Source of the DNA: Planotetraspora phitsanulokensis
GTDB taxonomy: Bacteria > Actinomycetota > Actinomycetes > Streptosporangiales > Streptosporangiaceae
Assembly: GCF_016863295.1 (NCBI RefSeq)
Contig: NZ_BOOP01000028.1
Coordinates: 1-64,000 of the forward strand
Reading direction: 5' to 3'
Length of the DNA: 64,000 nucleotides
Shown one piece after another: positions 38,563 to 64,000 of the stretch; the stretch's first letter is position 1; each line of letters begins with the position of its first letter. The position numbers were made by a program, and so were the translations under genes. Below the pieces are notes generated by a model. It was given only the letters and a program-made list of their open reading frames with translations, ran no database searches and was not told the DNA's origin.

Positions 38563-40392
38563 TCACGACGGCACCGGCGCCGGGTCGCCGACGGCGACGG
38601 CCTTCACGCAGATGCCTCCGTTGACGGAGAGCGGCAGCGATCGGACGGCGGAGCGCACGGGGAAGTACACGACACCGTCCCCTCTCTTCATCGGCAGCGT
38701 CACCAGCCGCCCGTCCACCGTCGCGGTCGCCTCCGTGTCGCCCAGCGCGGCGTAGCCGATGCCCGCGACGGTCACCGGCCCGCCGTCCGTGCTCAGCGGA
38801 AGGTCGACCACGTCGCCGGTCGCGGGGAAGCACGGCAGGCCCGCGGGAGGACCGAGCAGGCCGCCCTTGATCGTCATCTTGACCAGCCGGCCCTTGTCGT
38901 CGAAGACGCGGGGCTCTGTGGACGGTCGCGGTGCGCGCATGCTCTCGACGGCCCACTCCGGGGCCACGGGTGCGAGCACGCGGGAGGTCAGGTCGGTGAG
39001 GCCGGTCGCCGGGATCGGCATCTCCAGCGGCACGTCGCTGGGGAAGATGACCGTGCCTGCGGGCGCCGCTGCGAGGGCGCGGGCCGCGTTGCCGATGTAC
39101 GCCCGCTGCTCGGTGGTGTCGATCAGCCCGCCGAAGGAGCTGATCGACAGGATCGACAGCGCGGCCATCACGCCCCCGAGCACTCCGGCCGCCGCCTTGA
39201 CGGCCGGCCCGGACGGCGGCCTGATCAGGTAAGTCCGGCGACCGTTCTCGGCCAGGTCGCGGACGGGGAGGAAGGCGAGGGCCAGACACACGGCGACCAC
39301 CGGCGCGGCGTCCGAGACGTACCGCATCTCCCGGCCGGACCACTCGGTGGCACGGCCCAGCCAGGTGAACAGGGTGTCGGCCACCAGGAGCCACGTCAGC
39401 AGGACGAGCCAGGCCCGCCACGCGCCCCGGCGGAAGACCATGCTCGTCACGAAGGCCAGCGTCCAGACGATTCCGGCGACGACCACGAGCGCGACCGGTG
39501 GCGACGCGTTGGCGAAGTGGCCGGCGCCCGGCTGCCAGGCGGCGGGGCCGCCGATCGCGCCCGTGAAGAACGTCGCACCGATCAGCCGCCCGGCGTACGG
39601 CAGCAGGCCGATGCCGCGTTCGACGCCCACGGCCACGTACGAGCTGGCCGTGGCACCCGAGACGAGGTAGACCGTGCCGTACCCGGCGAGCAGCAGGCCG
39701 TGCAGAACAAGAAGCAGGCGCCGCCGCAGGAGCAGCCGGAGCGCGTCGCGGACGCCGCGGACCCCGGAGACGAGGATCGGGGCGGCGACCACCGTCACCA
39801 CCACGAGCAGCAGCGGGATGACGGCCGCCTTGACGAAGAAGAACAGGCCGAAGGCCGTCCAGGCCACCGCTCGCAGACCCGGCCCGAGAGTTCCCTCGCG
39901 AAGGTGGCGGACGTGGGCGTACAGCGCGCCCGCCACGGCGAGCTGGAGGGGGACGCTGAGCACGGCCGCCGAGTACCAGGCGACCGCGGGCACCGTCAGC
40001 GGCGAGAACAGGTAGAAGGCGAGCGGCGCCAGGATCGCCGGCCTGTCGCCGAACAGCAGGCGCAAGGTGCGCAGGACGTAGACGTACGCCCCGACCTGCA
40101 GGAGGAGCACCACGGACCAGGTCAGGACCCAGTTGTATCCGGCGGCCCAGGTGAGGATCCAGGTGAGGAGCAGGCCTCCCGGCATGTGCTGGCCGTACAC
40201 CGGCTGGGTCAGGTAGGACCAGCCGGGCGGTCCCTCCGTGGCGAGGGCGACGAAGCGGAAGTCGTCGACGCTGTACCAGGTGGCGCGCAGCGCGACCACC
40301 TGGCAGACGACGGACAGGGGGATCATCGCCCAGGCCGCGGCGGCGATCCTCTTCCCGTGCCGCCACGCCGGCAGCGCGATCCTCGGTGACAC
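38563..40392 (-). CDS. GT-C-like polytopic membrane protein, paralog 1 of 4
   Basis: 609 aa. About ten to twelve membrane helices are followed by an extracytoplasmic C-terminal beta-rich domain of about 170 residues, the layout of GT-C glycosyltransferases. The first external loop carries Asp43-Asp44 in SVDDFRF, the place of the catalytic acidic pair that uses polyprenyl-phosphate sugars. The next loop has GQHMPGG. The C-terminal domain ends with SVNGGICVKAVAVGDPAPVP, shared in pattern with paralogs at 40402, 54476 and 58080. GTG 40392 lies 9 bp after the paralog 2 stop (GAGG within that stop region). Probable sugar donor: DPA or another polyprenyl-phosphate sugar. Confidence 0.78.
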   Translation of the reverse strand: MSPRIALPAWRHGKRIAAAAWAMIPLSVVCQVVALRATWYSVDDFRFVALATEGPPGWSYLTQPVYGQHMPGGLLLTWILTWAAGYNWVLTWSVVLLLQVGAYVYVLRTLRLLFGDRPAILAPLAFYLFSPLTVPAVAWYSAAVLSVPLQLAVAGALYAHVRHLREGTLGPGLRAVAWTAFGLFFFVKAAVIPLLLVVVTVVAAPILVSGVRGVRDALRLLLRRRLLLVLHGLLLAGYGTVYLVSGATASSYVAVGVERGIGLLPYAGRLIGATFFTGAIGGPAAWQPGAGHFANASPPVALVVVAGIVWTLAFVTSMVFRRGAWRAWLVLLTWLLVADTLFTWLGRATEWSGREMRYVSDAAPVVAVCLALAFLPVRDLAENGRRTYLIRPPSGPAVKAAAGVLGGVMAALSILSISSFGGLIDTTEQRAYIGNAARALAAAPAGTVIFPSDVPLEMPIPATGLTDLTSRVLAPVAPEWAVESMRAPRPSTEPRVFDDKGRLVKMTIKGGLLGPPAGLPCFPATGDVVDLPLSTDGGPVTVAGIGYAALGDTEATATVDGRLVTLPMKRGDGVVYFPVRSAVRSLPLSVNGGICVKAVAVGDPAPVPS

Positions 40393-40401
40393 TGGGGAGC
40401 C

Positions 40402-47614: not shown

Positions 47615-48364
47615 TCAGCGCGGCAGGCGCCGCCACACCGCCTGGGGCAGCACGCGCATGACCGCGAACACCGGACGCAGCCTGCCGGGCACCCAAACCG
47701 TGCGCCGCCCGGACCGCAGCCCGTCGATGACCGCGTCGGCGACGGCGTCCACCGTCACCGACATCGGAGCCGGGGTCATGCCCTCGGTCATGCGCCCGAC
47801 GACGAAGCCGGGCCGGACGACCACCACCCGGGCGCCGGAGCCGTGGAGCGAGTCGGCGAGGCCCTGGGCGAAACCGTCCAGGCCGGCCTTGGCCGAGCCG
47901 TACACGAAGTTGGCCTTGCGGACGCGCACGCCCGCAACGGACGACAACACGACGAGCGTGCCGTGGCCCTGCTCCCGCAGCCGCCGGGCCGCGGCGAGGC
48001 CGATCGACACGTGCCCGCCGAAGTTGACCGCGACGTCGCGCGCGGCGGCGACGGGGTCCACGTCGTAGACGGACTGGCGGCCGAGCACCCCGAAGGCCGG
48101 GATCACGACGTCGAGGTCGCCCAGCTCCGCGACGGCGTGCTCGATCAGCGCGGCGTGCGTCTCGGGCCGGGCGGCGTCGAAGTCGGCCAGATGAACGTCC
48201 GCGCCCAGCTTCCGCAGCTCCTCCGCCGGTGCGGTGCCACCCCGCGCGGCCAGCATGACGCGGCGCGCACCGGCTCTGACCAGGCGCTCGACGATCGCGA
48301 GGCCGATCTCGCTGCGGCCGCCGAGGAGCAGGACGGTGTCGACGGAACCCAGGGCGTTCTTCAT
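47615..48364 (-). CDS. dprE2: Decaprenylphosphoryl-beta-D-erythro-pentofuranosid-2-ulose 2-reductase DprE2
   Basis: 249 aa SDR. The nucleotide motif is LLLGGRSEIGLAI (about 12-24), the GG.SEIG form typical of DprE2, with VVIPAFGVLGRQ near 86-97. Catalytic Ser141/Ser142, Tyr155 and Lys159 lie in SSVAGVRVRKANFVYGSAKAGLDGFAQGL. It reduces the 2-keto intermediate made by DprE1 to DPA, the only known donor of cell-wall arabinofuranose. GGGGGAGACA precedes the ATG at 48364, 10 bp after the dprE1 stop. Last gene of the operon. Confidence 0.92.
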   Translation of the reverse strand: MKNALGSVDTVLLLGGRSEIGLAIVERLVRAGARRVMLAARGGTAPAEELRKLGADVHLADFDAARPETHAALIEHAVAELGDLDVVIPAFGVLGRQSVYDVDPVAAARDVAVNFGGHVSIGLAAARRLREQGHGTLVVLSSVAGVRVRKANFVYGSAKAGLDGFAQGLADSLHGSGARVVVVRPGFVVGRMTEGMTPAPMSVTVDAVADAVIDGLRSGRRTVWVPGRLRPVFAVMRVLPQAVWRRLPR

Positions 48365-48374: not shown

Positions 48375-49724
48375 TCACAGGCACAACCTTCTCGCGAGGT
48401 CGGAGCGGAACACGCCATCCGGGTCGGCGCCGTCGCGGATCGCCCGCCACTCGTCCAGACGAGGGTAGGTCGAGGCCACCATGGCGGCCGGCATCCGGGA
48501 GTCCTTGGCCAGGTACAGCCTGCCTCCGGCGGCGGCCACCCACTCGTCGAACAGGGTCAGCATCCCGGCCAGCCCTCGTTGTCCCACCGGGATGTCGAGC
48601 GCGAGCGTCCAGCCCGGCATGGGGAAGGACAACATCCCCGGCGTCCCCTGTCCGAACCTCTTGAGCACGGTGAGGAAGGACACCACGCCCTCGTTCGAGA
48701 GGCGCTCCACCACGCGGCGCAGCGTCCCCTCCGCTCCGAACGGCACGACGAACTGGTACTGCACGAATCCGCGGGAGCCGTACATGCGGTTCCAGTGGGC
48801 CACGCCGTCCAGCGGGTGGAAGAACGGCGCGATCCCCTGGACGAGCCCACGTTTGGCGGCGGGCGCCTTGCCGTACCAGGCGGCGTTGAACGCGCCGACC
48901 GTCGCCCGGTTGAGCAGGCCCGGCGGCACCCACGGCGGCGCGGACAGGCGGGGCCGCGGCGCGAACGCGAGGGGATCGCGCCGCATGCGGACGGGAAGGT
49001 CGTCCCTGGCGGCGTGGTCGCCGCGTGTCAGCACGCTGCGGCCCATGCGGCCTCCCCGGGCGAGCAGGTCGATCCAGGCGACCGTGTAGCGGTACCGGTC
49101 GTCGGTCGCGGTCATGACCTCGAGGGTCTCGTCGAGGTCGCGGGTGCGCTCGACGTCGACCCGCATGCGCGAGGTCTCCACCGGAACGCACGCGAAGGTC
49201 GCCTCCACGACGACGCCGGTCAGCCCCATGCCGCCGACCGTGGCCCAGAACAGCTCGTCGGCGGGGGTGAGCACCCGCAACGATCCGTCCGCGGCGAGCA
49301 GGCTGAGCGACCGCACGTGAGCGCCGAACGAGGAGTCGACGTGGTGGTTCTTGCCGTGGACGTCCGCGGCCACGGCTCCGCCCACGGTGACGTGGCGCGT
49401 GCCCGGCGTCACCGGCACGAACCAGCCACGCGGGACGAGCTCGGTCATCAGGTCGTGCAGGCTCATGCCCGCGGACGCCGTCACCAGCCCGGTCGCGGGG
49501 TCGTGGGCCCACGACGGGGCGAGGGCCGTGCAGTCGAGCACCAGCCCTCCCGAGTTCTGGGCGGCGTCGCCGTACGACCGGCCGAGACCTCGCGCGACGA
49601 CCCCGCGTCCGGTCGCCGTCCGCAGGAGTTCGGCCGCCTCCTCCACCGATTGCGGGCGCGACAACCGGGCGGGCGTCGGGGCCGTACGTCCCCACCCCGT
49701 CAGGAGCGTCGTGTCGAGCGTCAT
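48375..49724 (-). CDS. dprE1: Decaprenylphosphoryl-beta-D-ribose oxidase DprE1
   Basis: 449 aa FAD oxidase of the VAO fold. ARGLGRSYGDAAQNSGG near 44-60 and ADVHGKNHHVDSSFGAHVRSLSLL near 120-142 form the flavin/substrate region with the conserved VHGKNHH histidine. C-terminal YLAKDSRMPAAMVASTYPRLDEW includes Lys407. It oxidises decaprenylphosphoryl-ribose at C2 in the periplasmic space. The site equal to benzothiazinone-target Cys387 of the tubercle bacillus is Ala375 (in GWTLALDIPVG), predicting natural resistance. It sits 10 bp after the phosphoribosyltransferase gene. Confidence 0.94.
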   Translation of the reverse strand: MTLDTTLLTGWGRTAPTPARLSRPQSVEEAAELLRTATGRGVVARGLGRSYGDAAQNSGGLVLDCTALAPSWAHDPATGLVTASAGMSLHDLMTELVPRGWFVPVTPGTRHVTVGGAVAADVHGKNHHVDSSFGAHVRSLSLLAADGSLRVLTPADELFWATVGGMGLTGVVVEATFACVPVETSRMRVDVERTRDLDETLEVMTATDDRYRYTVAWIDLLARGGRMGRSVLTRGDHAARDDLPVRMRRDPLAFAPRPRLSAPPWVPPGLLNRATVGAFNAAWYGKAPAAKRGLVQGIAPFFHPLDGVAHWNRMYGSRGFVQYQFVVPFGAEGTLRRVVERLSNEGVVSFLTVLKRFGQGTPGMLSFPMPGWTLALDIPVGQRGLAGMLTLFDEWVAAAGGRLYLAKDSRMPAAMVASTYPRLDEWRAIRDGADPDGVFRSDLARRLCL

Positions 49725-49734: not shown

Positions 49735-50664
49735 TCACGTCAGGTAGACCCCGACGGCCAGAGACAGCAGCAACAGCCCGATGAAGACCTGCAGCGGACG
49801 GTCCCGCAGGGCGAGTTCCTCCGGTTCCTCCCCCACACCCCGGTCCACGAGCAGGGCGTGCCGCAGCACGACGAGGACGAACGGGACGATGCTGACGGCA
49901 TAGGGCGCACGGGCGAGGCCCTCGTGCTCCTGCAGGGCCCACAGGCAGTAGGTGACGATCATCGCGCCCGACGCCATGACCCGGACGTGCCCCAGGTAGG
50001 CGACCGTGTACGTCACCAAGGTGGCCCGGGTGCCGTTGCCGCCCTGGGCGCGCAGCTCCGCCTCCCTCTTGCCCGCCACGAGCAGGAGGGACCCGAGCGA
50101 GATGACGACGAGGAACCAGCTCGTCACCGGCACGGCCACCGCGACCGCACCCGCGTAGGCCCGGATCACGTGGCAGCCGGCGACGGCGACCAGGTCCACC
50201 ACCGGCTGCCGCTTGAGCCAGAACGTGTAGGAGGACGTCAGCGCGATGTAGGCGGCCACCACGGCGGCCAGCCGCCAGCCGCCGGCCCAGCCGGTGAGGA
50301 GACCGGCGGCGATGAGGACCGCGCCGACCAGACGCGCGAGCCGTACGGACACCACGCCGGAGGCGATCGGCCGCGACCGCTTGCGCGGGTGCCGCCGGTC
50401 GGCCTCAACGTCGGCGGAGTCGTTGAACAGGTACGTGCCGCTCGCCGTCAGGCAGAACGCCGCGAACGCGACGAGCGAGCCGCGCATCCCCGCGCCCGTG
50501 GTGAGCACGCCCGCGGCCGCCGGAGCGGCGAAGACGAGCGCGTTCTTGAGCCACTGGCGGGGACGGCAGGCGCGGAACAGCCCCGCCGCCACCGAGCGCG
50601 CGGAGCCCGCGCTCGCCGGTGAATCGTCCACCGGCGAGCGGAGAGCCGTGCCTTCGGGGCTCAT
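49735..50664 (-). CDS. Decaprenyl-phosphate phosphoribosyltransferase (UbiA family)
   Basis: 309 aa with about nine membrane helices. The UbiA motif NDSADVEADRRHP (81-93) supplies the Mg/diphosphate aspartates. FRACRPRQWLKN near 30-41 matches DPPR synthases. It adds phosphoribosyl diphosphate to decaprenyl phosphate, the first committed step to DPA. A phosphatase for the 5-phosphate intermediate is not in this operon. It is followed directly by dprE1 and dprE2, and preceded by the DUF3068 gene after a 51-bp gap. Start ATG 50664 has only a weak ribosome site. Confidence 0.92.
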   Translation of the reverse strand: MSPEGTALRSPVDDSPASAGSARSVAAGLFRACRPRQWLKNALVFAAPAAAGVLTTGAGMRGSLVAFAAFCLTASGTYLFNDSADVEADRRHPRKRSRPIASGVVSVRLARLVGAVLIAAGLLTGWAGGWRLAAVVAAYIALTSSYTFWLKRQPVVDLVAVAGCHVIRAYAGAVAVAVPVTSWFLVVISLGSLLLVAGKREAELRAQGGNGTRATLVTYTVAYLGHVRVMASGAMIVTYCLWALQEHEGLARAPYAVSIVPFVLVVLRHALLVDRGVGEEPEELALRDRPLQVFIGLLLLSLAVGVYLT

Positions 50665-51675: not shown

Positions 51676-51739
51676 TCGCTCCTCCTGGGGCATCCCGCAC
51701 TGGGGGGTGAGAGACTGTGAAATTGTGGGTGTTATGTAC

Positions 51740-51826: not shown

Positions 51827-53091
51827 GCGAGATGCCGGCGGACTCCCCGCGAACGGAGAATTCCCGTCTCGTCTCCCCCGGCCTGTCGGCCACCGGCGGG
51901 CGTCAGGCGTCCCTGGACGGGCTGCGTGCCGTCGCCGCGTTCGGCGTGCTCCTGTTCCACGTGTCGATCGAGACCGGGACCGCGCTCCGCGAGGGGTTCC
52001 TCGGCGGCATCCTCGCCCGCGGCGAGGTAGGAGTGCCGATCTTCTTCACTCTCTCCGGCCTGCTGCTGTACCGGCCGTGGGCGCGGGCGGTGCTGGCGGA
52101 CTCGCCCGATCCCGACACCAAGGTCTACCTGTGGAAGCGCCTGCTCCGGATCATGCCGGCGTACTGGCTGGTCGTCGTCGTGGCCCTGCTGCTGTGGGCG
52201 GACGGCCACCGCGGCGACCTGTGGACGTGGACCGAGATGTTGCTCCTGCTGCACAACTACGACATCGACCACTGGTGGTACGGCCTGGGGCCGCAGGGCC
52301 TCGGCCAGATGTGGAGCCTCTCGGTCGAGGTCGCGTTCTACCTCACGCTCCCCATCATGGCCGCGGCCCTGCGCGCCTACGCGACGCGAGGCGGCGCGCC
52401 GGTGGCCGTCCGGGCGAAGCGACTGCTCATCGGTCTCGCCGCATTCGGCGCCGTGTCCTACGTCTACACGGTCTTCGAGTTCCACCCCGACTACCGGCCG
52501 TGGATGAACATCTGGCTGCCGCGCTCGTGGACGTTCTTCGTCCCCGGCATGATGCTCGCCGTCGTCGCCGCGTGGGCGCGCACCGGCGCCGAGTCACCGC
52601 GGCGCTTCAGCCGCGCCGTCCACTCGTCCACGGGTTCGTTGTGGCTGGTCGCGGCCTTGGCCTACGTGATCGCGGCCACGCCGGTGACCGGCGCCCGGTT
52701 CGTCGGCATCGACGGCATGTGGGCCGGCCTGGTGGAACAGGTCCTCTACACGACGGTGGCGTTCTGCCTGATCGCCCCCGCCGCCCTGCAACCGGAACGC
52801 GGCGGGCTCGCCGGGTCAGTGCTGGGCGGCCGCGTGATGAGTTATCTGGGCCGGGTGTCCTACAGCGTCTTCCTGTGGCAGTTCGTCGTGCTCTACCTGT
52901 GGCGGGACTTCACCGGCCAGAAGACGTGGACGGGCGACCTCGTCCTCAACTTCGTCCCGGTGGCCGGGCTCACCCTCCTGCTGGCGCACCTGACCTACCG
53001 CTACGTCGAGGAGCCCGCCCGCCGGCTGATCCACTACGTGACACCCCGTCCGGATCCGGCGACGGACGCCGCCCTTCAGCCGGCCCCCTAA
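51808..53091 (+). CDS. Acyltransferase-3 family membrane protein
   Basis: 427 aa. After a polar N-terminus, LDGLRAVAAFGVLLFHVSIETG near 36-57 has the conserved Arg and catalytic-candidate His. FFTLSGLLLYRPW, a QMWSLSVEVAFYLTLPIM segment near 170 and about ten helices follow. Such enzymes O-acylate (e.g. acetyl, succinyl) envelope polysaccharides or lipids. A mycobacterial relative lies beside DUF3068 and AftD, so decoration of the arabinan-type polymer is a reasonable guess. GTG 51808 is the longest start; ATG 51832 would place the second KstR-like box upstream of the gene. The stop overlaps the convergent SDR stop. Confidence 0.88.
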   Translation: MTETGSSEMPADSPRTENSRLVSPGLSATGGRQASLDGLRAVAAFGVLLFHVSIETGTALREGFLGGILARGEVGVPIFFTLSGLLLYRPWARAVLADSPDPDTKVYLWKRLLRIMPAYWLVVVVALLLWADGHRGDLWTWTEMLLLLHNYDIDHWWYGLGPQGLGQMWSLSVEVAFYLTLPIMAAALRAYATRGGAPVAVRAKRLLIGLAAFGAVSYVYTVFEFHPDYRPWMNIWLPRSWTFFVPGMMLAVVAAWARTGAESPRRFSRAVHSSTGSLWLVAALAYVIAATPVTGARFVGIDGMWAGLVEQVLYTTVAFCLIAPAALQPERGGLAGSVLGGRVMSYLGRVSYSVFLWQFVVLYLWRDFTGQKTWTGDLVLNFVPVAGLTLLLAHLTYRYVEEPARRLIHYVTPRPDPATDAALQPAP

Positions 53092-54475: not shown

Positions 54476-56320
54476 TCAGGGGCCGGGAACGACCGCGCCG
54501 AACGCCACGGCCTTCAGGCAGAGGCCGTCGGGCACGGTGACGCGCATGCCCTGCCCGACACCGGGGTGGGGGAAGTACACCGGCCGCTCCTGCGCGGTCG
54601 CCGGCAGATCCATGCGAGTGGACGCCGAGCCGAGCGACACCTCGACCGTGACCGGACGTTCGCTGGTGTACCTCAACCACCCGACCGCCTCGGGACCGCC
54701 CAGCGACTCGACGGGAAACGAGACGGCCCCGTCCTTCAACGGATAGCACGAGCCTTCTTCGGCTCCGTCGAGATAGCCGTAGATCCCCTTCACGGGGACG
54801 AGCCTGCCCGTGTCGTCGATGACGTACGGCTTGTCCGTCGGCGCGGGATCACGCATTCTCCGCCGCAGTCCCTCGTCGGCGAGAGGGGTGAGGACGCGTG
54901 AGGTGAGCCGCCGCTCGCCGTTCCACGGCAGCACCGCGTAGTCCGGGACCGGCCGCGTATAGATCTGCGCTCCCGCGGGGACCGCCGCGAGCGAGGCCCG
55001 CGCGGTGTCCAGATAGGCGCGGATCCGGTCGCCCACCACGAGCGTCCCGCCGTACGACGTGATGGACGCGATCGACATGCCCACCACGGCGAACGTCGCG
55101 AGCGCCGCCACCAGGGGCATGACGTCGGGGTACGGCCGGCGCATCGCCCGCTCCTCTCCCCGGACCGGCAGGAAGGCCAGCGCGAGGCAGATCGCCGCGA
55201 TGAGGGCCGCGTCGGCCACATAACGGGTCTCGGCGCCCACCAGGTCGGTGTACCGGCCACGGGCGAGCACGGTCGGCGCCGCGTCGGCCACGAGGACGAA
55301 GGCCGCCGCGATCAGCCAGGCCCGCCAGGCGTGCCTGCGATACACGCAGGTGAGCGCGATCACGACGGCGATCGTGAGCCATGACCCGACCACGAAGGGG
55401 GACGAGGGATCGGAGAGCCCGCCGGTCCCGGCCAGACCTCCCCAGTTGAGCGGGCCTCCGACGACGCCGGTGGGGAACGTCTTGCCGAGCATCCATCCGA
55501 GCAGCCCGGCCGTGACGTCCCCCTTGGGCGCTCCCGCACCCTCGTCGCCGGCCGTCCCCTGCTGCGCGAGATAGAGCACGGCGTAGGCCGCCAGGACCCC
55601 CGCGTAGGTCAGCCAGATCCGGGTGTGCGTCCGCACCTCCCGCACCGTCGACCGCACCCAGCCCCCTTCGGAGCCGAGGTAGGCCGTGACGACGGCGAAC
55701 GTCACGAACGGCAGGAAGACACCCTTGGTCGAGAACGCCATGCCGAACAGGGCCCAGTACAGCCCACGCCAGGCGTGGCGCGTGTCCCCGGTCTGCGCGA
55801 ACCGCACATGGGCGGCCAGCGAGAAGACGATCGCCACCTGCAGGGGGACGGCGTTCAGCGCCGCCGACCACCAGCTCAGCGCCGGCACGGTGAGGGGCGC
55901 GAAGACGTAGACGGCCAGTGGGATCAGGATCCCCGTTCGCCCGCCGAAGAGACGGCGCAGCAGCACCAGCATCCCGGCCGACGCCGCGGCCTGCAGGGCC
56001 AGCATCACCGTGCAGACCAGGAACCAGTTATAGGCGGCCGCCCGCGACACCACCCAGACCAGCAGGAGGGCGCCCGGCATGAGGTGCCCCTTGTGCACCC
56101 GCATGAGGTAGTCCCACGTGAGGCCGTGCTCGTGGGCGTCGCCGACGAACAGGAAGTCGTCCTCGATGAAGTAGGACCGGGAAAGGACGTGGGCCTTGAA
56201 GACCAGCGACACGGCGATCAGGGCGAGGGCCGCCAGCGTCACCCGGTCGGGCCGCGGGGCGGCGAGGCGGATCCGGATCGTTCCCGGCCGGCGCACGTGC
56301 TCGATCTCGGTCTCCGTCAC
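54476..56320 (-). CDS. GT-C-like polytopic membrane protein, paralog 3 of 4
   Basis: 614 aa, same layout as the other paralogs. The N-terminal helix at about 28-48 is followed by Asp54-Asp55 in FIEDDFLFVGDAHEHG, KGHLMPGALL, and many helices. The C-terminal domain contains SGSCYPLKD-type and YFPHPGVGQGMRVTVPDGLCLKAVAFG elements. GTG 56320 has GGAGGGACGACC upstream; a start at 56350 would run through a KstR-type box. It is divergent from the methyltransferase gene, and its end lies 7 bp from the TetR stop. Confidence 0.78.
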   Translation of the reverse strand: MTETEIEHVRRPGTIRIRLAAPRPDRVTLAALALIAVSLVFKAHVLSRSYFIEDDFLFVGDAHEHGLTWDYLMRVHKGHLMPGALLLVWVVSRAAAYNWFLVCTVMLALQAAASAGMLVLLRRLFGGRTGILIPLAVYVFAPLTVPALSWWSAALNAVPLQVAIVFSLAAHVRFAQTGDTRHAWRGLYWALFGMAFSTKGVFLPFVTFAVVTAYLGSEGGWVRSTVREVRTHTRIWLTYAGVLAAYAVLYLAQQGTAGDEGAGAPKGDVTAGLLGWMLGKTFPTGVVGGPLNWGGLAGTGGLSDPSSPFVVGSWLTIAVVIALTCVYRRHAWRAWLIAAAFVLVADAAPTVLARGRYTDLVGAETRYVADAALIAAICLALAFLPVRGEERAMRRPYPDVMPLVAALATFAVVGMSIASITSYGGTLVVGDRIRAYLDTARASLAAVPAGAQIYTRPVPDYAVLPWNGERRLTSRVLTPLADEGLRRRMRDPAPTDKPYVIDDTGRLVPVKGIYGYLDGAEEGSCYPLKDGAVSFPVESLGGPEAVGWLRYTSERPVTVEVSLGSASTRMDLPATAQERPVYFPHPGVGQGMRVTVPDGLCLKAVAFGAVVPGP

Positions 56321-56382: not shown

Positions 56383-57123
56383 ATGGAGACCCCCGAGGCG
56401 TTCCGCGCGGACCTCGCGCGGTCGGTCCGCCTGCTCGGCGCCTTCCGCCTGGAGCAGAGCGATCCGAGCTTCTTCTACGGCCTGCTGGCCAGGGACACGG
56501 TGGCCCAGCTGTCCGCCTACACCGATCTGAACGGCGCGCTGGTGGCCGACATCGGCGGCGGGCCGGGCTACTTCGCCGAGGCGCTGCGCGCCGCCGGAGC
56601 CCGCACGGTCTGCGTGGACTGCGACGCGGGCGAGATGCGCGCGCGTGACGGCGTCATGCCCGAAGGCGCACTCCTGGGCAGCGCGCTGGAGATCCCGCTG
56701 CGTACCGGGTCCGTCGACGTGAGCTTCTCCTCCAACGTGCTGGAGCACGTGCCCGACCCCCTGACCATGGCCGACGAGCTCGTCAGGGTGACCCGGCCGG
56801 GCGGGCTCGTCTATCTGTCGTACACGTCGTGGCTGTCGCCCTGGGGCGGCCACGAGACCTCGCCCTGGCACTACTTCGGCGGCCACCGTGCGGCCCGTCG
56901 CTACGAACGCCGGTACGGCAGGCCGCCCAAGAACGTCTACGGCGAGAGCATGTACGCCGTGTCGGTGGCGCGGATGCTGAAATGGGCGCGACGCCAGGCG
57001 AGCGCCGAGGTGCTCGACACGATCCCCCGCTACCACCCTCGCTGGGCCCGGCATGTGACGCTCCTACCGGGGATCCGCGAGATCGTCACGTGGAACCTGC
57101 TGCTCGTCCTGCGCAGGCGCTGA
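56383..57123 (+). CDS. Class-I SAM-dependent methyltransferase
   Basis: 246 aa. SAM site VADIGGGPGYFAEALRAAGA near 54-73, acidic loop VCVDCDAGEM, and motif SFSSNVLEHVPDP near 117-129. No membrane segment. Mycobacteria carry a similar-size methyltransferase close to the DUF3068/AftD region, so methylation of an envelope glycan or its lipid carrier is plausible but unproven. Its 3' 60 bp overlap the end of the convergent DUF3068 gene. Confidence 0.88.
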   Translation: METPEAFRADLARSVRLLGAFRLEQSDPSFFYGLLARDTVAQLSAYTDLNGALVADIGGGPGYFAEALRAAGARTVCVDCDAGEMRARDGVMPEGALLGSALEIPLRTGSVDVSFSSNVLEHVPDPLTMADELVRVTRPGGLVYLSYTSWLSPWGGHETSPWHYFGGHRAARRYERRYGRPPKNVYGESMYAVSVARMLKWARRQASAEVLDTIPRYHPRWARHVTLLPGIREIVTWNLLLVLRRR

Positions 57124-58083
57124 GCGGGGCCGCCGCCGAGACGCCCAGATCCCCGCGCCGATGAGCAGCAGCCCGAAGCCGGCCGCGCCGATCGGCAGGA
57201 TGGTGCGCAGCCATCTGCTCCACGTGGCGTAGGCCGCGGCCTCGGCCTCGTTGAGGGCGATCTCGTTCGCGGGCGTCCGCAGGTCGGCGGCCAGCACGAC
57301 CAGCCGTTCCACCCCGTCGGCCGTGCGGAAGGCCTCCCGCCGGTTCTCCTCGGACTTGACGGGCACGCCGCTCACCGGCTCGACCCAGACCGTCCGCTCC
57401 GTCTGCGCCCACCTGGTCACGGTGAAGCTCCGGTCGCCCCGCAGGCCCAGCGTCGTGCCCGGGATGCGGATCGCGACGTCCTCGACCTTCGTCGCCGGCA
57501 CGTGTTGCCTGTACCGGTAGGTCGTGACGCCGTCAACGGACTCCACCCCGTCGAACACCATCGGCAGCGTCCGCTTCATCTGGGGGTCGAAGTACGCGTA
57601 GTCCTGTTTCCGCGCGTCGAACGGCCAGCGGAACGCCAGGCCCGACTGGCGGGCCGCGGGATCGTCGTCGACGTACTCTCCGCAGCAGTTCACGATCGCG
57701 CCGGTGCGCCGGTCGAAGGCGACCTTGCGTTCGTGGTAGTCGATGCGGTCGCCGTCCCCGGTGTCGAGGGAGCTCGACTCGAGCCAGACCGCGCGGTCGT
57801 CGTCGCCCGCCGCGGCGTCCCCGTTCAGCGCGCGCGTGAGCACGACCGGGCCGGTTCGCGACCGCATCGCGGCGGTGTCGAAGTAGGTGGCCGACGCGGT
57901 GTACAGGTGACTGGTCGACGAGTGTTCGAGCGGCATCCGGATGACCCTGTCGTGCACGAAGCCGCGCAGCAGCGGGACGAGGGTGAGCAGGAACGCGCCC
58001 GCCCCGGCCAGGGTGAGCGCCGCGGCGCGGCGCAGGGACGCGCGACCCGGAACGGAGGCCCGCCGGCCCTGGACGGCGGTCAC
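57064..58083 (-). CDS. DUF3068 membrane-anchored protein, copy 2
   Basis: 339 aa. N-terminal helix about 20-40, external domain, second helix about 292-313, basic tail. Shared DUF3068 signatures with copy 1: LVPLLRGFVHDRVIRMP, AIVNCCGEYVDDDP, WPFDARKQDYAYFDP, VDGVTTYRYRQHVP, TVWVEPVSGVPVKSEENRREAF. GTG 58083 overlaps the stop of GT-C paralog 4 as GTGA, so the three genes aftD, GT-C 4 and DUF3068 are translationally coupled. Role unknown. Confidence 0.88.
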   Translation of the reverse strand: MTAVQGRRASVPGRASLRRAAALTLAGAGAFLLTLVPLLRGFVHDRVIRMPLEHSSTSHLYTASATYFDTAAMRSRTGPVVLTRALNGDAAAGDDDRAVWLESSSLDTGDGDRIDYHERKVAFDRRTGAIVNCCGEYVDDDPAARQSGLAFRWPFDARKQDYAYFDPQMKRTLPMVFDGVESVDGVTTYRYRQHVPATKVEDVAIRIPGTTLGLRGDRSFTVTRWAQTERTVWVEPVSGVPVKSEENRREAFRTADGVERLVVLAADLRTPANEIALNEAEAAAYATWSRWLRTILPIGAAGFGLLLIGAGIWASRRRPRSAPAQDEQQVPRDDLADPR

Positions 58084-59948
58084 GACGCCGGCACCGCTTC
58101 GCCGACGGAGACGTCCCCGAAACAGATCTGCGCTCCCATGGGCAGGCCGGACACGAGGACCTTCGGCAGGTTCGCCGGGGCCGTGAAGAGGATCCGGCCC
58201 AGCCCCTGTCCGATCGTCACGTCGTATCTCCTGTCGCCGAGATAGAGGACGGCGGGGGCGCTCGCGGCCGAGGAGTAGCCGATCCGGACCACGTCCCCGG
58301 CCTGCGGGACCTTCTGCAGCGGGATCTCCACCCCTGCCCCGGCCACGGGATAGCAGCCGCCGGGCGCGGCGGTCCGCTCCCCCGACCCTTCGGCCGCACG
58401 CAGACGGCCCTGGTCGTCGACGACCAGGACGTTCGTGGACGGCGCCGGATGGCGCATGCGCTCGCGTTGTGCGGGCGTCGCCAGCGGGGCCAGGACGCGG
58501 GAGGTCATGGCGTACTCGCCGTAGGCCGCGTCGATCACGTCCCCGGGGGCCCGGCGGTCCAGGATGACGGCGTCCTGCGGGGCCGTACGCAGCGCGGCGG
58601 CGGCGGTCGTGAGATAGGCGTGCGCCCTGTCGTTGCCCAGATAGCTGGACAGGACGCTGACCGAGGCGAGTGAGCCCACGAGGAAGCCGCCGAGCAGGAG
58701 CCCGCCCGCGCCGGTCACCAGGTCTCTGGGCGGACGCGCGCGATAGGGCCGGTCCTCGCCGGTGAACGGCAGGAGGGCCGCTCCCACGGCGAGCGCGAGC
58801 ACGGGGGCCGCGTCGACGACGTACCGCGTCTCCATGCCGTGGAAGGCCCCGAGGATGTGGACGCGCCCGTAGTACGTCGGCACGACGTCGGCGACCACCA
58901 GGTAGCCGAGCAGCAGGCCCCAGGCCCGCAGGGCGCGCCGGCGGTAGCGGGCGGTGACCACCAGCAGGGCGAGGGCGACGACCGCCGCGAGGCCGACGAG
59001 CAGGGCGGGCGGGCTGGCGACGGCCCGGTCGGGACCGGAGAACCACTTCCAGGGGCCGCCCAGCGTCGTGCCGAGGAAGGTGTCGAGGAGCAGCTTCTTG
59101 ATGAAGCCGAGCCCCTCCGGCAGCGTCGGCCATCCGCTCATGTCGGCGGTGTCCCGGCCGGCGACCAGGTAACCGGCCACGTACGCCACGACGACGGCCG
59201 CGTACGCCGCCCACAGTCCCGCGTGCCTGCGCAGCACCCCTCGCACGCCGCCGCCGTCCGAGAAGTACGCGAGCGTCAGCGCGAACAACAGCGGCGGCAG
59301 CGCCGCCGCCTTCAGGAAGGAGCACAGACCCACGACGAGCCACGCCGTCGCCGCCACCGCGTGCAGGAGGCGGCCGTCGCGCAGGTGGAGGACATGGCTG
59401 GTGATCGCCATGGGGATCGCGACCAGCAGCGGCACGAGGTTGAGCGCCGCCGACCACCAGGTGAGCGCGGGCACGGTGAACGGCGCGAACAGGTAGACCG
59501 CGAGCGGGACCAGGATCGCCCGTCTGCGCCCGAACAGCACGACCAGCATGCGGAGGACGGCGAGGCCGGAGACCGTGAACAGGACCAGCATGCTGCCCGC
59601 CGCCAGGCCCCAGCTGTACGGCGCGATCCGGGTGACGAACCAGGCCAGGGCGAATCCCACCGGCATGAACTGCCCGTAGTGGACGCGGGTCAGGTAGTCC
59701 CACGAGAGGGGGCCGTCCACCGCCCGCGCGGCGAACTCGAAGTCGTCCTCCTTGAAGTACGCCAGGCTCACGACCTCGGCCCGCCACCACAGCTGGAGCA
59801 CGAGCAGGACGACCGCGGCCAGCATGACGCCGTTGCGCCGGACGAACGCGCCCCAGGCCGACAGCAGCGCCACCGTCTCCGCGGGAAGCGTGATGCGGAT
59901 CCGCGGCGGCTCGGGCCGCGGAGTGACATCCGAGATCACCTTGGTCAC
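58080..59948 (-). CDS. GT-C-like polytopic membrane protein, paralog 4 of 4
   Basis: 622 aa. Helix about 39-58, then Asp68-Asp69 in YFKEDDFEFAARAVDG, YGQFMPVGFALAWF, about ten further helices, and the C-terminal domain ending GLPMGAQICFGDVSVGEAVPAS. GTG 59948 overlaps the aftD stop by 4 bp and its own stop overlaps DUF3068, placing it physically within the aftD operon. Best functional guess of the four: a polyprenyl-phosphate arabinose (or other sugar) transferase working with AftD. Confidence 0.82.
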   Translation of the reverse strand: MTKVISDVTPRPEPPRIRITLPAETVALLSAWGAFVRRNGVMLAAVVLLVLQLWWRAEVVSLAYFKEDDFEFAARAVDGPLSWDYLTRVHYGQFMPVGFALAWFVTRIAPYSWGLAAGSMLVLFTVSGLAVLRMLVVLFGRRRAILVPLAVYLFAPFTVPALTWWSAALNLVPLLVAIPMAITSHVLHLRDGRLLHAVAATAWLVVGLCSFLKAAALPPLLFALTLAYFSDGGGVRGVLRRHAGLWAAYAAVVVAYVAGYLVAGRDTADMSGWPTLPEGLGFIKKLLLDTFLGTTLGGPWKWFSGPDRAVASPPALLVGLAAVVALALLVVTARYRRRALRAWGLLLGYLVVADVVPTYYGRVHILGAFHGMETRYVVDAAPVLALAVGAALLPFTGEDRPYRARPPRDLVTGAGGLLLGGFLVGSLASVSVLSSYLGNDRAHAYLTTAAAALRTAPQDAVILDRRAPGDVIDAAYGEYAMTSRVLAPLATPAQRERMRHPAPSTNVLVVDDQGRLRAAEGSGERTAAPGGCYPVAGAGVEIPLQKVPQAGDVVRIGYSSAASAPAVLYLGDRRYDVTIGQGLGRILFTAPANLPKVLVSGLPMGAQICFGDVSVGEAVPAS

Positions 59949-62900
59949 GGCACTCCAGAAAGGTGGGTGTCCCTGCGGGCCTCAGACGCCGCCAGCGGCG
60001 CCTGCCCAACCGGATCAGGGATCCGCGGCGCCCGCGTCCCCGCCGGGTCGTCGGGCACGTTGGCGAACAGGCGGGCGAGGAGCGGCAGGCAGAGCAGTTG
60101 CGGCACGAGGTCGCTCAGCGGCTCACCCCAGGCGGTGTTCTCCGCGAGCAGCAGCGCCGTGCCCACCGCCAGGCTCAGCCCGGCCAGAGCCAGCGAGGCC
60201 AGCGCGGCGGGGGCGGACGAGAGCGCGCGCGAAACGGCCACGACGACGGTCCCCCGCCGGGCGTGCTCGCCCGCCGAGACCCGCCGGAACAACACGGTCG
60301 CGGCGAAAAGCGCGCTCAGCACCGCGAGGCCCGTCAGGCCGCCGATCCAGAACCCGTAGAGCGGCACGAACGGCCACAGCCACTTGACCCGCATCCCCCG
60401 GGGGCCGACAGGCGGATGGGCGGCACGGCGCCGAACGGGGACCGCGGCGGCGGCCACGACGAGCAGCACCAGCACCGCACCGACCGCCAGGCCCACGCGG
60501 TACACGCCGTCCGGCCGGTAGCTCATGGTCACGGTCCCGGTCGTGCCCGCGGGCAGGATCCACGCCTGCCGCCACCCGTCGAGCCGCGCCGGAGCGAGTT
60601 CGCGCCCGGCCACGGAGGCGTGCCATCCGTTGTTGTAGTTCTCGTTGACGACCAGATAGCTGGCCGCGGTCGCGTCGACCTCGACGCGGCGCTCCCAGCC
60701 CGTCCACTCCTTGACGTCCACCGGCCGGGTCACCGTCGGCGCCGCCGCCACGGCACCGGGCCGGCGGATGACGGCCGTCCGGATCCGGTACGGGTCCTGC
60801 GGCGACGCGGACAGCCGCGTCTGCCCCGGCAGGACGTTGAAGTTCTCGCAGGCCTCGTACGTGAGCGGCCTTCCGGCGAGGACGTCGGCGAGCGTCCCGC
60901 CGACGATCCTGGTGTGCACCGGAGCACCGTCGACCGACAGCGTGGGACCATAGCCGCACGGCAGCCGCAGCGGGTAGCCGCCGAGCGCCCCCAGGGGCTT
61001 CACGCCGGGGATCGTGACGTCGTTCACCTCGATCGGCCGCGAGCTGGACGCGGTGAACACGATCGAGAGCTTCCCGGTCTTCATCGGCGGGAACTCGATC
61101 CAGCCGTCGCGGCCGACCCAGCCCTCACGCGTGCCGCCGTCGCCCCGCAGGGTCAGGCGCACCGGAGGCGGCCCGATGGAGGAGTCGGGGAACACCACCT
61201 TGATCCGGGAGAGGGTGACCGGACGGGCCATGGTGACGTCGAGCGTGGGCGAGCGGTCGAGCGGGTCGGCGTACCAGACCGTCGCCGGATCGCCGTCGAA
61301 GGCGGATCGCGCGATGGTCGCCGGGTCGTCGGTGTACGTCGAGGACGAGGTGACGGTGAGCGGCTCGCCGGGGAGCGTGGTGACCCGCTCGATCTCCGAA
61401 CGGGAGGTGAGCACGGCCTGCCCGGTGAGGGTCCGCTCGCCCGAGCCCTGGGACTCGTAGGCCCGGTTGAAGCCGTAGGCGTCCTCGCCCTGGATCTCGA
61501 GCCCGTTCGAGCAGGCCCAGACGTACGACCCGCGCATGCAGGCAGGCACGTCCCCGTTCCTGCTGAAGGAGACGACCGCCTCGCCGCGGGGGTCGCCGGG
61601 AGCCTGCGGGACGACGATGGTCCTGCCGGGGGTCACCCCGGGGATCGTGAGCTCGGCGATCCCGACCCGGCTGCCCAGCTTCGTCTTGGGCTCGTAGGCC
61701 AGCTTCGTGATCCGGATGCGCACCCGCGTGGTCGGCCCGGGCGGCACGGCGAGGCGTTGCGGCTCGGCGGTCGTCCTGACGGACTGGAGCAGGCTTCCCG
61801 TGTCGGTCTCGACGGCGACCTGCGAGGGCGGCGGCCCGATGTACCCCTGGTCCAGCGCGAGCGTCACCGACGGGAGATCGGTGGGCTTGGTGAGCGTCAC
61901 CTCGAGCCACTCGCCCAGTGAGCCCTTCCATCCGGCGGACCGCCAGCCGGTCCGCCTGTCTCCGTCGACGGCCGCGAAGGGCTGGCGCCCGGGATCGCGG
62001 GAGCCGGGCATGGCGGTCGCGTCGGCCTCCGACGACGACGCCCGCACAGCGGCGATCTCCAGCAACTGGGCCGTCGACTGGAAGGGCTCCCAGGAGGGGT
62101 CGGTGAGGTCAGGACCCGACGCGGTCTCCCCGGGCGTGAGGGTGGCGCCGGCGACCTGTCTCAGGTCGCTCAGCTCGACGTCGGTCTTCCTCAGCGTGTC
62201 GGTGAGGACCGTGTCGTACGCGGGGATCGCCGAGGCGCCGGGATCGTCGCCGAGGACGACGGGCCGGTCGTCGGGCAGCAGGCCCTGCTCCGCCAGGTCG
62301 AGGACCGCCTCGGGGGCTCCTCCCACGCGCAGGGCGCCCGCCACCGGCACGGTGCCGATCAGTGGGGCCGCCTTCTCCACCCGGTAGATCTCCAGGGCGG
62401 TGTAGGGCTGGTCGAGCCAGCTCGAGGCGATGGTGCCGAGCCGCTCTCCGACTGCCGGGCCGAACCGTTTGACCAGCGTGATCCCGGGTGAGTCCTCGAT
62501 GGCCTGATGGACGCGCGCGGGCCAGGCCGTGCCGATGGTGCGGCGCTCGAGGTCGTTGCGCACCACCAGGTAGCCGACCCCGATCCGGCGCAGCGTCTCG
62601 GTGAGCCCGGCCGAGCCCTGTCCCGAGGCGAAGCGGTCGTCGATGGCCGCCAGCAGCCTGCTGGATCCCGCCGACCCCCAGGGGACGATGGTGTGCGTCG
62701 CCCATCGGGCCGTGAGTAGCGGCTGGAGGGGCTCGTCCAGCGGGCGTCCCCACTGGTACTCGCCGCGTTTGGAGCCGGGAACGGCCAGGACCATCTGGTC
62801 GCCGGCGTTCTCGTCGAGCCACGTGGTCGCCTGCTTCCAGTAGCCCGGGATCTCCGTGAACGACCCGGACGGCGCGAGCCCCTCCGCGACGATCGGCACG

Positions 62901-64000
62901 CAGGTCACCGCGACCATCGCCGCGCCGGCGGCCGTCAGCGGCAGCCGGGCGCGCGGCCTGACCAGGCAGAGCAGCCCGGCTAGCCCGAGTACGACGGGCA
63001 GCCGGATCAGCGCGTCGAACTTGTGGAGGTTGCGGAACGCCGCGAGCGGCCCGTCGAGCGCCTGCACGACGGCGTCGTTCAGCGGGCCCGCGACGGCGCT
63101 CGCGTGACCGGCCGCCACGATCGCCACGCCCACGAGAAGCGTGATGAGCAGAAAGGACCGTTCCGGCAGGCTCCGCATGGCCAGACCGGCCAGCCCGAGC
63201 CCCGCGAGCAGGACGGTGACCACGATCAGCCACGGGCTGAAGGCCTGCTGGTAGGCCCCCGCCATCCACGGCTGGCCGTCCACCGACAGGAACGCCAGCC
63301 AGCTCGAGGTGCCGCGCAGGACGTTGGTCAGCGACGTCACGCCGGTCGTCGCGGTGGCGTTCTCGATGAACGGGAGGAAGGAGAAGACGTAGCGGCCCAT
63401 GACGAGCAGCGGGACCGCCCACCAGAACGACACCGCCGCGATCAGGACGCACCACCACGCCATCAGCCGGCGGCGCAGCGGCCCGCGAGCCCGGGTCAGC
63501 AGATAGAGGGCGGGCGCGACGAGGACGGCGAGCTCCGCCGTGGCGTTGACGCCGCCGCAGAAGAGGAACGCGACAGCCGACAGCGCGGCGGCCCTGCGCG
63601 GTCCCGTCGTCCCCTCCGCGCCCCGGACCAGCGGAAGCATGATCCACGGCATCAGGGCGCTGGGCAGGAACTCGGAGGAGTTGATCCCGATCAGCGCCTG
63701 TGCGTGCGGCGCCAGCGCGTACGCGAGACCGGCGAGGATGCGTGTGTTGGGCGTGCCGATCCGCAGCGCCCGGGCGAGTTGTACCACTCCGAGGAAGGCG
63801 GCGCAGAGCACGAACGACATCCACAGCCGCTGAACGTTCCACGCGGGCATGTCGAGCTTGAGCCACAGCGCGTAGAAGGGCCCCATCGGGAACAGGTAGC
63901 CGTAGGCCTGGTTCTGCAGGTGACCGAAGTAGTCGTCGTCCCACAGGTGCAGCGCCCGGCTGAGGAAGCGCAGCGGATCGACCGCCATGTCGAGCTTGGT
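59945..64000 (-). CDS. aftD: Alpha-(1->3)-arabinofuranosyltransferase AftD (5' end outside window)
   Basis: About 1351 residues visible, open through the window edge; the first visible residues TKLDMAVDPLRFLSRALHLWDDDYFGHLQNQAYGYLFPMGPF are the AftD N-terminal region with the acidic GT-C pair, so only a short N-terminus is missing. An N-terminal membrane block runs to about residue 430. A long external region follows with two galactose-binding/F5-F8 type C-like units (GWRSAGWKGSLGEWLEVTL and FDGDPATVWYADPLDRSPTLDVTMA). C-terminal helices begin near 1160. AftD transfers arabinofuranose from DPA onto arabinan. It heads the operon aftD/GT-C 4/DUF3068. Confidence 0.93.
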   Translation of the reverse strand, partial: TKLDMAVDPLRFLSRALHLWDDDYFGHLQNQAYGYLFPMGPFYALWLKLDMPAWNVQRLWMSFVLCAAFLGVVQLARALRIGTPNTRILAGLAYALAPHAQALIGINSSEFLPSALMPWIMLPLVRGAEGTTGPRRAAALSAVAFLFCGGVNATAELAVLVAPALYLLTRARGPLRRRLMAWWCVLIAAVSFWWAVPLLVMGRYVFSFLPFIENATATTGVTSLTNVLRGTSSWLAFLSVDGQPWMAGAYQQAFSPWLIVVTVLLAGLGLAGLAMRSLPERSFLLITLLVGVAIVAAGHASAVAGPLNDAVVQALDGPLAAFRNLHKFDALIRLPVVLGLAGLLCLVRPRARLPLTAAGAAMVAVTCVPIVAEGLAPSGSFTEIPGYWKQATTWLDENAGDQMVLAVPGSKRGEYQWGRPLDEPLQPLLTARWATHTIVPWGSAGSSRLLAAIDDRFASGQGSAGLTETLRRIGVGYLVVRNDLERRTIGTAWPARVHQAIEDSPGITLVKRFGPAVGERLGTIASSWLDQPYTALEIYRVEKAAPLIGTVPVAGALRVGGAPEAVLDLAEQGLLPDDRPVVLGDDPGASAIPAYDTVLTDTLRKTDVELSDLRQVAGATLTPGETASGPDLTDPSWEPFQSTAQLLEIAAVRASSSEADATAMPGSRDPGRQPFAAVDGDRRTGWRSAGWKGSLGEWLEVTLTKPTDLPSVTLALDQGYIGPPPSQVAVETDTGSLLQSVRTTAEPQRLAVPPGPTTRVRIRITKLAYEPKTKLGSRVGIAELTIPGVTPGRTIVVPQAPGDPRGEAVVSFSRNGDVPACMRGSYVWACSNGLEIQGEDAYGFNRAYESQGSGERTLTGQAVLTSRSEIERVTTLPGEPLTVTSSSTYTDDPATIARSAFDGDPATVWYADPLDRSPTLDVTMARPVTLSRIKVVFPDSSIGPPPVRLTLRGDGGTREGWVGRDGWIEFPPMKTGKLSIVFTASSSRPIEVNDVTIPGVKPLGALGGYPLRLPCGYGPTLSVDGAPVHTRIVGGTLADVLAGRPLTYEACENFNVLPGQTRLSASPQDPYRIRTAVIRRPGAVAAAPTVTRPVDVKEWTGWERRVEVDATAASYLVVNENYNNGWHASVAGRELAPARLDGWRQAWILPAGTTGTVTMSYRPDGVYRVGLAVGAVLVLLVVAAAAVPVRRRAAHPPVGPRGMRVKWLWPFVPLYGFWIGGLTGLAVLSALFAATVLFRRVSAGEHARRGTVVVAVSRALSSAPAALASLALAGLSLAVGTALLLAENTAWGEPLSDLVPQLLCLPLLARLFANVPDDPAGTRAPRIPDPVGQAPLAASEARRDTHLSGVP

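Follow-up and report, generated by a model that had tools for sequence, protein, structure and literature searches.

The question raised by the locus described here is what an actinomycete of a family without mycolic acids does with the genes for an arabinose donor, placed among homologs of a mycobacterial envelope locus. The locus lies in a stretch of 64,000 nucleotides (the window) of Planotetraspora phitsanulokensis, which corresponds to positions 1–64000 of contig NZ_BOOP01000028.1 in a host genome of 9.17 Mb (95 contigs, completeness 100). It combines the genes for synthesis of decaprenyl-phospho-arabinofuranose (DPA) with AftD, with homologs of the tmaT locus of the Corynebacterineae, and with four paralogous proteins resembling GT-C glycosyltransferases. 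On the sequence evidence, the paralogs are probably DPA-using arabinosyltransferases, and the locus would make a minor, lipid-anchored or surface arabinose-bearing glycan (a reading with a probability of about 0.6). The locus is a real one, both old and conserved, and its DPA/AftD/tmaT core is already known; for the arrangement in a non-mycolate host and for the paralog family, no earlier description was found in the literature searched.

The DPA biosynthesis trio is encoded on the minus strand, each member above its NCBIfam equivalog cut-off. It consists of the decaprenyl-phosphate phosphoribosyltransferase of the UbiA family (DPPRS; 49735..50664; NF008978, 379.8 bits, cut-off 207; PDB 8j8j, E 3.7e-62), DprE1 (48375..49724; NF053785, 617.8 bits, cut-off 500; PDB 4aut, E 4.5e-127) and DprE2 (about 47615..48364, with the start placed at the ATG after GGGGGAG; NF053786, 295 bits, cut-off 250). 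The predicted steps of DPA synthesis therefore rest on curated families. Upstream of the trio on the same strand lies DUF3068/PgfA-LmcA protein a (about 50716..51693; PF11271; NF053601 PgfA, 287.1 bits, cut-off 160; LmcA structure 7n3v, E 2.5e-14). The plus strand carries a TmaT-like membrane acyltransferase (51808..53091; Acyl_transf_3, PF01757), which has no NCBIfam model above cut-off and is 32–34% identical to the acyltransferase adjoining AftD in Rhodococcus, Gordonia and Williamsia, and an MtrP-like methyltransferase (56383..57123; PF08241), which is 54% identical to the methyltransferase of the Rhodococcus tmaT locus.

AftD itself is on the minus strand (59945..64000, continuing to contig position 64150, so that its first codons are beyond the window end). 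It scores 735.5 bits with PF11847, the N-terminal GT-C domain, matches the AftD structure 6w98 with an E value of 5.5e-139, and also contains CBM_AftD (63.5 bits) and F5/8 type C domains according to Pfam. Beyond the window follow a GT4 glycosyltransferase (contig 64147–65463), which overlaps the AftD start by 4 bp, and a MmpA homolog (contig 65929–67527; NF053599, 372.7 bits, cut-off 210). On the other side of AftD are, again on the minus strand, GT-C-like paralog 4 (P0004; 58080..59948), with a 4-bp overlap at either side, and DUF3068/PgfA-LmcA protein b (57064..58083; PF11271; NF053601, 269.2 bits, cut-off 160), so that 4-bp GTGA overlaps link GT4, AftD, paralog 4 and DUF3068b into a chain. 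The two DUF3068 genes are the only PF11271 matches in the genome. The other three paralogs, also on the minus strand, are paralog 1 (P0001; 38563..40392; D-D pair at residues 43–44), paralog 2 in tandem with it (P0002; 40402..42231), and paralog 3 (P0003; about 54476..56320), which belongs to the largest orthologous clade. Gene picks by GC3 include most of the named genes; the acyltransferase and the second DUF3068 are not among them and are found by the family models. The closest of the compared loci are those of Planotetraspora mira, silvatica and kaengkrachanensis (85–92% identity for paralog 1, up to 97% for other genes).

An earlier note on this DNA had read most of this from the reading frames. 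Its grouping of a UbiA-type phosphoribosyltransferase, DprE1, DprE2 and DUF3068 is confirmed by NCBIfam and Pfam models, the 4-bp overlaps of AftD, a GT-C-like protein and a second DUF3068 are present, and the further GT-C-like genes at 38.6–42.2 kb and 54.5 kb, the acyltransferase and the methyltransferase were all recovered. Its proposal of a dedicated DPA and AftD locus also stands. The two operons into which it divided these genes are correct as to gene content but not as to their separateness, because both are parts of one locus that is conserved in other genera and runs past the window. The homology to the described tmaT/mtrP/mmpA/lmcA locus, as judged from the family models and BLAST identities, was overlooked there.

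The four paralogs match no Pfam or NCBIfam model, and the family is undescribed in this sense. They align over their full length with 37% identity to the first; 96 of the 663 columns are invariant, including the acidic D-D pair which had been noticed in all four. A genome-wide search returned no family members besides these. In an alignment of 85 members, D69, K213, G297, W302, R362, Y376 and D379 (paralog 4 numbering) are conserved in 100%, and D68, G298, P299 and C532 in 99%, so that the acidic motif expected of GT-C enzymes after the first transmembrane helix (TM1) is kept in 99% and 100% of the members at its two positions. The D-D, R and RY..D residues are retained in all four window proteins, and by this measure none of them appears dead. 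In the family-averaged hydropathy profile (paralog 3 numbering), the first hydrophobic stretch (26–43) has the D-D pair (54–55) right behind it, and is followed by more hydrophobic stretches to residue 419 and then by a non-membrane C-terminus of about 190 residues, where the earlier note had placed a beta domain. This predicted layout matches that of the GT-C enzymes in the available text of PMC11127046. At the level of sequence, the GT-C assignment is weakly supported, by the PMT_2 and MmpA matches given below.

A PDB search with a four-row paralog profile gave nothing at E up to 1. With a 56-row profile, the two matches below 0.001 were short designed Ig-like proteins aligned to the C-terminal part (2.7e-4 and 5.1e-4), and the remaining matches had E values above 0.5. 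The designed proteins probably represent chance or composition, and would at best hint at a beta-sandwich.

In a tree of the 85 members, built by a quick method and containing several long branches, each window paralog falls in its own clade (paralog 1, 5 rows with support 100; paralog 2, 10 rows, 100; paralog 3, 29 rows, 99; paralog 4, 18 rows, 100), and the 14 rows from Rhodococcus, Gordonia and Williamsia form a separate clade. Several genera are present in each of the clades of paralogs 2, 3 and 4; therefore, those duplications are older than the split of the genera. The same dating for paralog 1 would depend on the single row of its clade from outside Planotetraspora (L011), which is on a long branch flagged by the program as a possibly false join.

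The possibility that the paralogs are simply orthologs of Rv0226c/MmpA was considered and rejected. The MmpA proteins of Rhodococcus (L071 and L077) do not match the paralog model, a true MmpA adjoins the window locus, and three other loci (L036, L107 and L108) carry both MmpA and a paralog. The profile-profile probability between the two families (hhalign) was 0.8% at first and 41% with a larger MmpA set, with a score of 43 against 14–22 for three unrelated controls.

To what extent the paralogs belong with DPA synthesis and AftD may be judged from their distribution. A scan of named genomes for the paralog family yielded 54 loci. AftD is present in 33 of them, and 24 hold the full core (AftD, methyltransferase, acyltransferase of the AT3 type, UbiA, DprE1, DprE2 and DUF3068) in conserved gene order. 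Among the nine AftD loci short of the full core, L012 is on a short contig, L032 ends after UbiA, L011 is without the acyltransferase, and L028 and L035 are without the methyltransferase. Of the 21 loci without AftD, 14 are from Rhodococcus, Gordonia and Williamsia, and the other seven (L001–L003, L019, L026, L033 and L038) are halves of a counted locus, short contigs, or fragments of metagenome-assembled genomes. The same loci, some of which overlap, supplied 32 DprE1 reading frames. In all 32, as in the window protein, the residue aligned to the Cys of the 4aut sequence, which we take to be Cys387, the target of benzothiazinones, is Ala.

In a sample of 150 genomes of the order, eight paralog candidates were scored per genome, and the paralog counts are therefore lower bounds. 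AftD was found in 126 genomes and the paralog family in 97 (80 of which have one match). AftD is present in all 97 paralog-bearing genomes, and no paralog match was obtained from the 24 genomes that lack AftD (Fisher test, 2.0e-13, with kinship ignored). The two genes are within 25 kb of each other in 64 of the 97 genomes, on different contigs in 28 (where assembly breaks are possible), and far apart on one contig in five. AftD occurs without a paralog match in 29 of the 126 genomes. One genome of the same genus as the window (G509, completeness 99) has neither AftD nor a paralog match, with 8 of 40 paralog candidates scored, and is a natural loss.

The genus g239 of the order is informative in that its locus is split into two blocks. 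The first contains the methyltransferase, paralog 3, the acyltransferase, DUF3068a, UbiA, DprE1 and DprE2 (3 of 3 genomes: L138, L140 and L143), and the second contains MmpA, GT4, AftD and DUF3068b (2 of 2: L139 and L141). In this genus, the paralog goes with DPA synthesis rather than with AftD. The association is not a strict one: seven AftD loci from genomes without a paralog match (L132–L137 and L142) all keep MmpA, GT4, AftD, the acyltransferase and DUF3068, with the methyltransferase in three of the seven.

A search at the level of the phylum, in which three candidates were scored per genome (three of the window's four being recovered in this way), found a paralog match in at least 19 of 396 genomes, of which 13 belong to a single family (f4). 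In a remote actinobacterium (L112), a paralog shares one stretch with AftD, UbiA, DprE1 and DprE2 and with an acyltransferase and a methyltransferase, the last two called by Pfam only. In another distant actinobacterium (L109:5088-13623), two tandem paralogs adjoin a divergent AftD (24% identity), and no further locus genes are present within the 16 kb examined.

Three known systems may be compared with the locus, the first being the tmaT locus. AftD regions from Rhodococcus koreensis, R. opacus, Williamsia maris, Gordonia polyisoprenivorans and a Phycicoccus were used for this comparison. In Rhodococcus, the genes run AftD, acyltransferase (the TmaT position), DUF3068 (the LmcA/PgfA position), a membrane-protein gene, MmpA (573 residues), GT4 and methyltransferase (the MtrP position). 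The membrane protein between DUF3068 and MmpA in R. koreensis (L071:7277-8557; 426 residues) resembles, by eye, a polysaccharide flippase, as would suit a glycan linked to a lipid. Homologs of MtrP, GT4, MmpA, LmcA/PgfA, TmaT and AftD are likewise together in the host locus; for TmaT and MtrP, the assignment comes from BLAST matches to the Rhodococcus genes in the corresponding places and not from curated models. Identities to the copies of Rhodococcus, Gordonia and Williamsia, some of them over partial lengths, are 32–33% for AftD, 50–54% for the MtrP-like protein, 35–37% for GT4, 34–36% for MmpA, 32–34% for the TmaT-like protein and 24–28% for DUF3068; for the Rhodococcus rows alone, they are 54% (methyltransferase), 36% (GT4), 35% (MmpA) and 26–28% (DUF3068), with the values for AftD and the acyltransferase unchanged. 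The mycobacterial counterpart is presumably Rv0224c–Rv0228 together with Rv0236c. In contrast to the tmaT locus of the Corynebacterineae, to which trehalose-mycolate export or synthesis of lipomannan (LM) and lipoarabinomannan (LAM) is assigned, the host locus adds the DPA synthesis genes, the GT-C-like family and a second DUF3068, and it stands in a family without mycolates, in a genome with no Pks13 above cut-off and no Emb, AftA or GlfT2 match.

The names MmpA, TmaT, MtrP and NCgl2760/LmcA come from work on C. glutamicum and mycobacteria, as given in the accessible portion of PMC8698533. PgfA, trehalose monomycolate (TMM) and LAM are treated in the corresponding part of PMC9678360, and the beta-barrel of LmcA in that of PMC8972800. 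Since PMC9678360 describes the DUF3068 family as restricted to actinobacteria, DUF3068 outside the Corynebacterineae is not new. Two statements in the portion of PMC8698533 cited above can be updated on the basis of profile matches. The first is that MmpA and Rv0226c lack homologs beyond corynebacteria and mycobacteria; MmpA homologs were found in loci with AftD from Microbispora, Nonomuraea, Streptosporangium, Sphaerisporangium, Sinosporangium, Actinorugispora and Phycicoccus (some of them truncated where the stretch ends). A partial homology of MmpA to AftD is stated with data not shown; the two profiles align with a probability of 98.8 (E 4.4e-17), against 0.04–0.66 for the controls AT3, UbiA and DprE1. 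By title and start of abstract, the papers found on PgfA, MmpA, TmaT, LmcA, MtrP and AftD (among them PMC8698533, PMC7775120, PMC8972800 and PMC11175481) all concern the Corynebacteriales and contain nothing on the locus outside that order. Nothing usable was found on arabinan in the Streptosporangiales or in actinomycetes without mycolates, and no description of the arrangement in non-mycolate hosts or of the paralog family was found in the literature searched.

With the mycobacterial DPA/Emb arabinan pathway the host shares DPPRS, DprE1, DprE2 and AftD, all by curated models; it differs in having no Emb or AftA match, and in the Ala of DprE1. The mycobacterial DPA genes are presumably Rv3790, Rv3791 and Rv3806c. 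A search for Emb (PF04602) gave no match in the host genome and none above cut-off in the 150 genomes of the order (with one sub-threshold match), which extends to the whole genome the earlier note's statement that the window has no Emb-like gene. AftA (PF12250) and GlfT2 (PF17994) also have no match in the host genome; the C. glutamicum control was positive for each of the three. As to the mycolate genes, for which the same note had suggested a check, the best Pks13 match in the host reaches 105 bits, far below the cut-off of 2100. Partial Pks13 matches were also seen in 11 of 14 control genomes other than C. glutamicum, the sole control above cut-off. Streptosporangiaceae are without mycolic acids, and Planotetraspora is listed among them, in the available part of PMC6113628. 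The further suggestion that the paralogs replace Emb is not supported as a rule, considering the 29 AftD-bearing genomes without a paralog match, the lack of Emb above cut-off in all 150 genomes, and the presence of a paralog homolog in mycobacteria, which have Emb.

The third system is the three-component pentofuranose (GT136) system of the Citrobacter O antigen. In the text of PMC11127046 available, it is alike in having a polyprenyl phosphoribosyltransferase, an epimerase and a periplasmic GT-C enzyme with a proposed catalytic Asp after TM1, and different in its acceptor, which is the O antigen, and in its flippase, which is a MATE protein.

The mycobacterial homolog belongs to the same family as the window paralogs but is not beside AftD or DPA genes in the stretches examined. 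In four f4 genomes it is matched by a profile holding the Rhodococcus, Gordonia and Williamsia rows with E values of 1.1e-155 to 3.7e-159, and it is 28–33% identical to the window paralogs by BLAST. With neighbour query genes taken from two of the four genomes, HolB, adenylate cyclase and a conserved membrane protein were found near it in all four, galE (at least 74% identity) in three, the fourth having a 30% epimerase-like match, and a GT2 gene in three; a PE-PGRS gene adjoins it in one. We take this neighbourhood to be the Rv3630–Rv3635 region, with Rv3635 as the homolog, Rv3634c as galE and Rv3631 as PpgS; Rv3635 was not mentioned in the literature searched by whole word. In the accessible part of PMC9671496, Rv3634c, PpgS and Rv3632 decorate arabinogalactan with galactosamine. 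If the assumed identity is right, the homolog is placed in an arabinan-decoration locus in mycobacteria and its relatives in a DPA locus in the host, an indication that arabinan is the substrate or product that they have in common. The 14 loci of Rhodococcus, Gordonia and Williamsia contain none of the six neighbours, and the galE neighbourhood is therefore not general.

With these results, a course of synthesis may be proposed. DPPRS would put phosphoribose on decaprenyl phosphate in the cytoplasm, DprE1 and DprE2 would epimerise the product to DPA, and DPA would then be flipped across the membrane. On the outside, AftD, and by our proposal the AftD-like MmpA and the four paralogs, would move arabinofuranose onto a carrier glycan, while the PgfA/LmcA beta-barrel proteins may transport or display the lipid-linked acceptor or product. 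Decoration of the glycan, with methyl and acyl groups, or its initiation may be due to the TmaT-like acyltransferase, the MtrP-like methyltransferase and GT4. The product would probably be a lipid-anchored (LAM-like) or cell-surface minor glycan and not arabinogalactan, and the same gene set would have been recruited later for mycolate export in the Corynebacterineae.

Several observations weigh against this proposal. Four loci (L029, L030, L036 and L037) have AftD and a paralog with no DPA gene in the stretch examined, and the AftD locus L136, which includes UbiA and DprE1, is from a genome without a paralog match. In the 14 loci of Rhodococcus, Gordonia and Williamsia, the paralog is adjoined neither by AftD or DPA genes nor by the mycobacterial neighbours. 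At the level of profiles, the probability between paralogs and AftD is 0.8, which is background, and the 41% with MmpA is the most that was reached. The lipomannan enzyme MptB has a single partial match in the host (50 bits, cut-off 40, 143 of 553 positions). Moreover, arabinose is absent from the whole-cell sugars given in the accessible parts of the reports on five relatives: Microbispora clausenae (galactose, glucose, mannose and madurose), M. catharanthi CR1-09 (galactose, glucose, madurose and some xylose), Nonomuraea corallina and N. composti (madurose, ribose, mannose and glucose), and Streptosporangium roseum (galactose and madurose). The CR1-09 genome, the only one of the five examined for the locus, carries it in full (L014). 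An abundant arabinan is therefore unlikely, while a minor lipoglycan or a masked decoration is still possible.

The other readings of the paralogs may be weighed against the same evidence. They might be GT-C enzymes whose donor is a different lipid-linked sugar (polyprenyl-phospho-mannose, -hexosamine or -ribose) and which decorate a polymer made by AftD from DPA. Such a role would agree with the mycobacterial homolog, which in three of four genomes is near galE and a GT2 gene, presumably of a polyprenyl-phospho-GalNAc pathway, and not near DPA genes, and with PMT_2, the Pfam family most often matched by the members, if weakly (3 of 56 members, best E 0.0026; 2 of 10 further scanned proteins, best E 7.4e-5, below the gathering score). 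It is made rather unlikely by the split loci of g239, in which the paralog stays with UbiA, DprE1 and DprE2 where AftD is elsewhere (3 of 3), and by the lack of a GT2 polyprenyl-sugar synthase among the scanned proteins of the window locus. The galE/GT2 neighbourhood itself, if it is the PpgS arabinogalactan-decoration locus that we take it for, favours the transfer of arabinose from DPA.

A non-catalytic role, as membrane scaffolds or as proteins that assist PgfA and the acyltransferase in lipid delivery, would be in line with the position of the paralogs beside DUF3068 genes and with the membrane-anchor role proposed for the AftD-like MmpA in the part of PMC8698533 available. We consider it improbable, as the polar residues after TM1 and before the late helices (D-D, K, R and RY..D) are near-invariant in the 85 members in the manner of an active site. 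Lastly, the whole locus could be what is left of a mycobacterial envelope locus, either gained horizontally or degenerate, and do little in its hosts; the lack of Emb, AftA and GlfT2 matches and of Pks13 above cut-off, the empty G509 genome and the lack of arabinose among the sugars reported for relatives would all agree with a remnant. This is very improbable, however, considering that the reading frames are intact, that the order is conserved in many genera, that most paralog clades hold several genera, and that the identity to the Mycobacteriales copies is low (about 24–54%). Arabinosyl transfer from DPA thus remains the preferred reading of the paralogs.

Other genes of the window surround or interrupt the locus. 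Those at 42.3–47.6 kb (an NMO-type flavoenzyme, LysR and two alpha-lytic protease prodomain genes) show no sign of membership; the two prodomain genes (PF02983; 44761–46257 and 46425–47579) adjoin each other between paralog 2 and DprE2. A short-chain dehydrogenase/reductase (SDR) gene and a TetR regulator (53088–54468) have the acyltransferase and paralog 3 as neighbours; of the loci with AftD from the named-genome scan, only those of Planotetraspora contain the SDR (L005, L007 and L027). Directly downstream of paralog 1 is an ARMT1-like damage-control phosphatase (PF01937; 37220–38461). The region 29751–37194 groups acyl-CoA ligases, thiolase-like proteins, a ChsH2-type OB-fold protein and an enoyl-CoA hydratase near EchA19 (338 bits, cut-off 400) in one cluster, which looks like one for steroid side-chain degradation.

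PgfA, MmpA, TmaT and MtrP are currently read through mycolate transport or lipoglycan synthesis. The occurrence of the whole set in a non-mycolate family, joined to DPA synthesis, suggests that this machinery may predate the mycolic-acid envelope. It makes an arabinan role testable without mycolates, and provides a functional lead for the uncharacterised mycobacterial membrane protein. It also bears on annotation, since the NCBIfam name 'trehalose lipid delivery protein', for which the host MmpA is above cut-off, is carried onto organisms without mycolates. We tentatively suggest, as a possibility with the odds somewhat against it, that the paralogs and the mycobacterial protein near galE form one family of DPA-dependent arabinosyltransferases, and that MmpA, TmaT, MtrP and PgfA derive from a pre-mycolate arabinan or lipoglycan machine. 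If this is true, the primary role of these four proteins, even in mycobacteria, may concern arabinan-bearing glycolipids.

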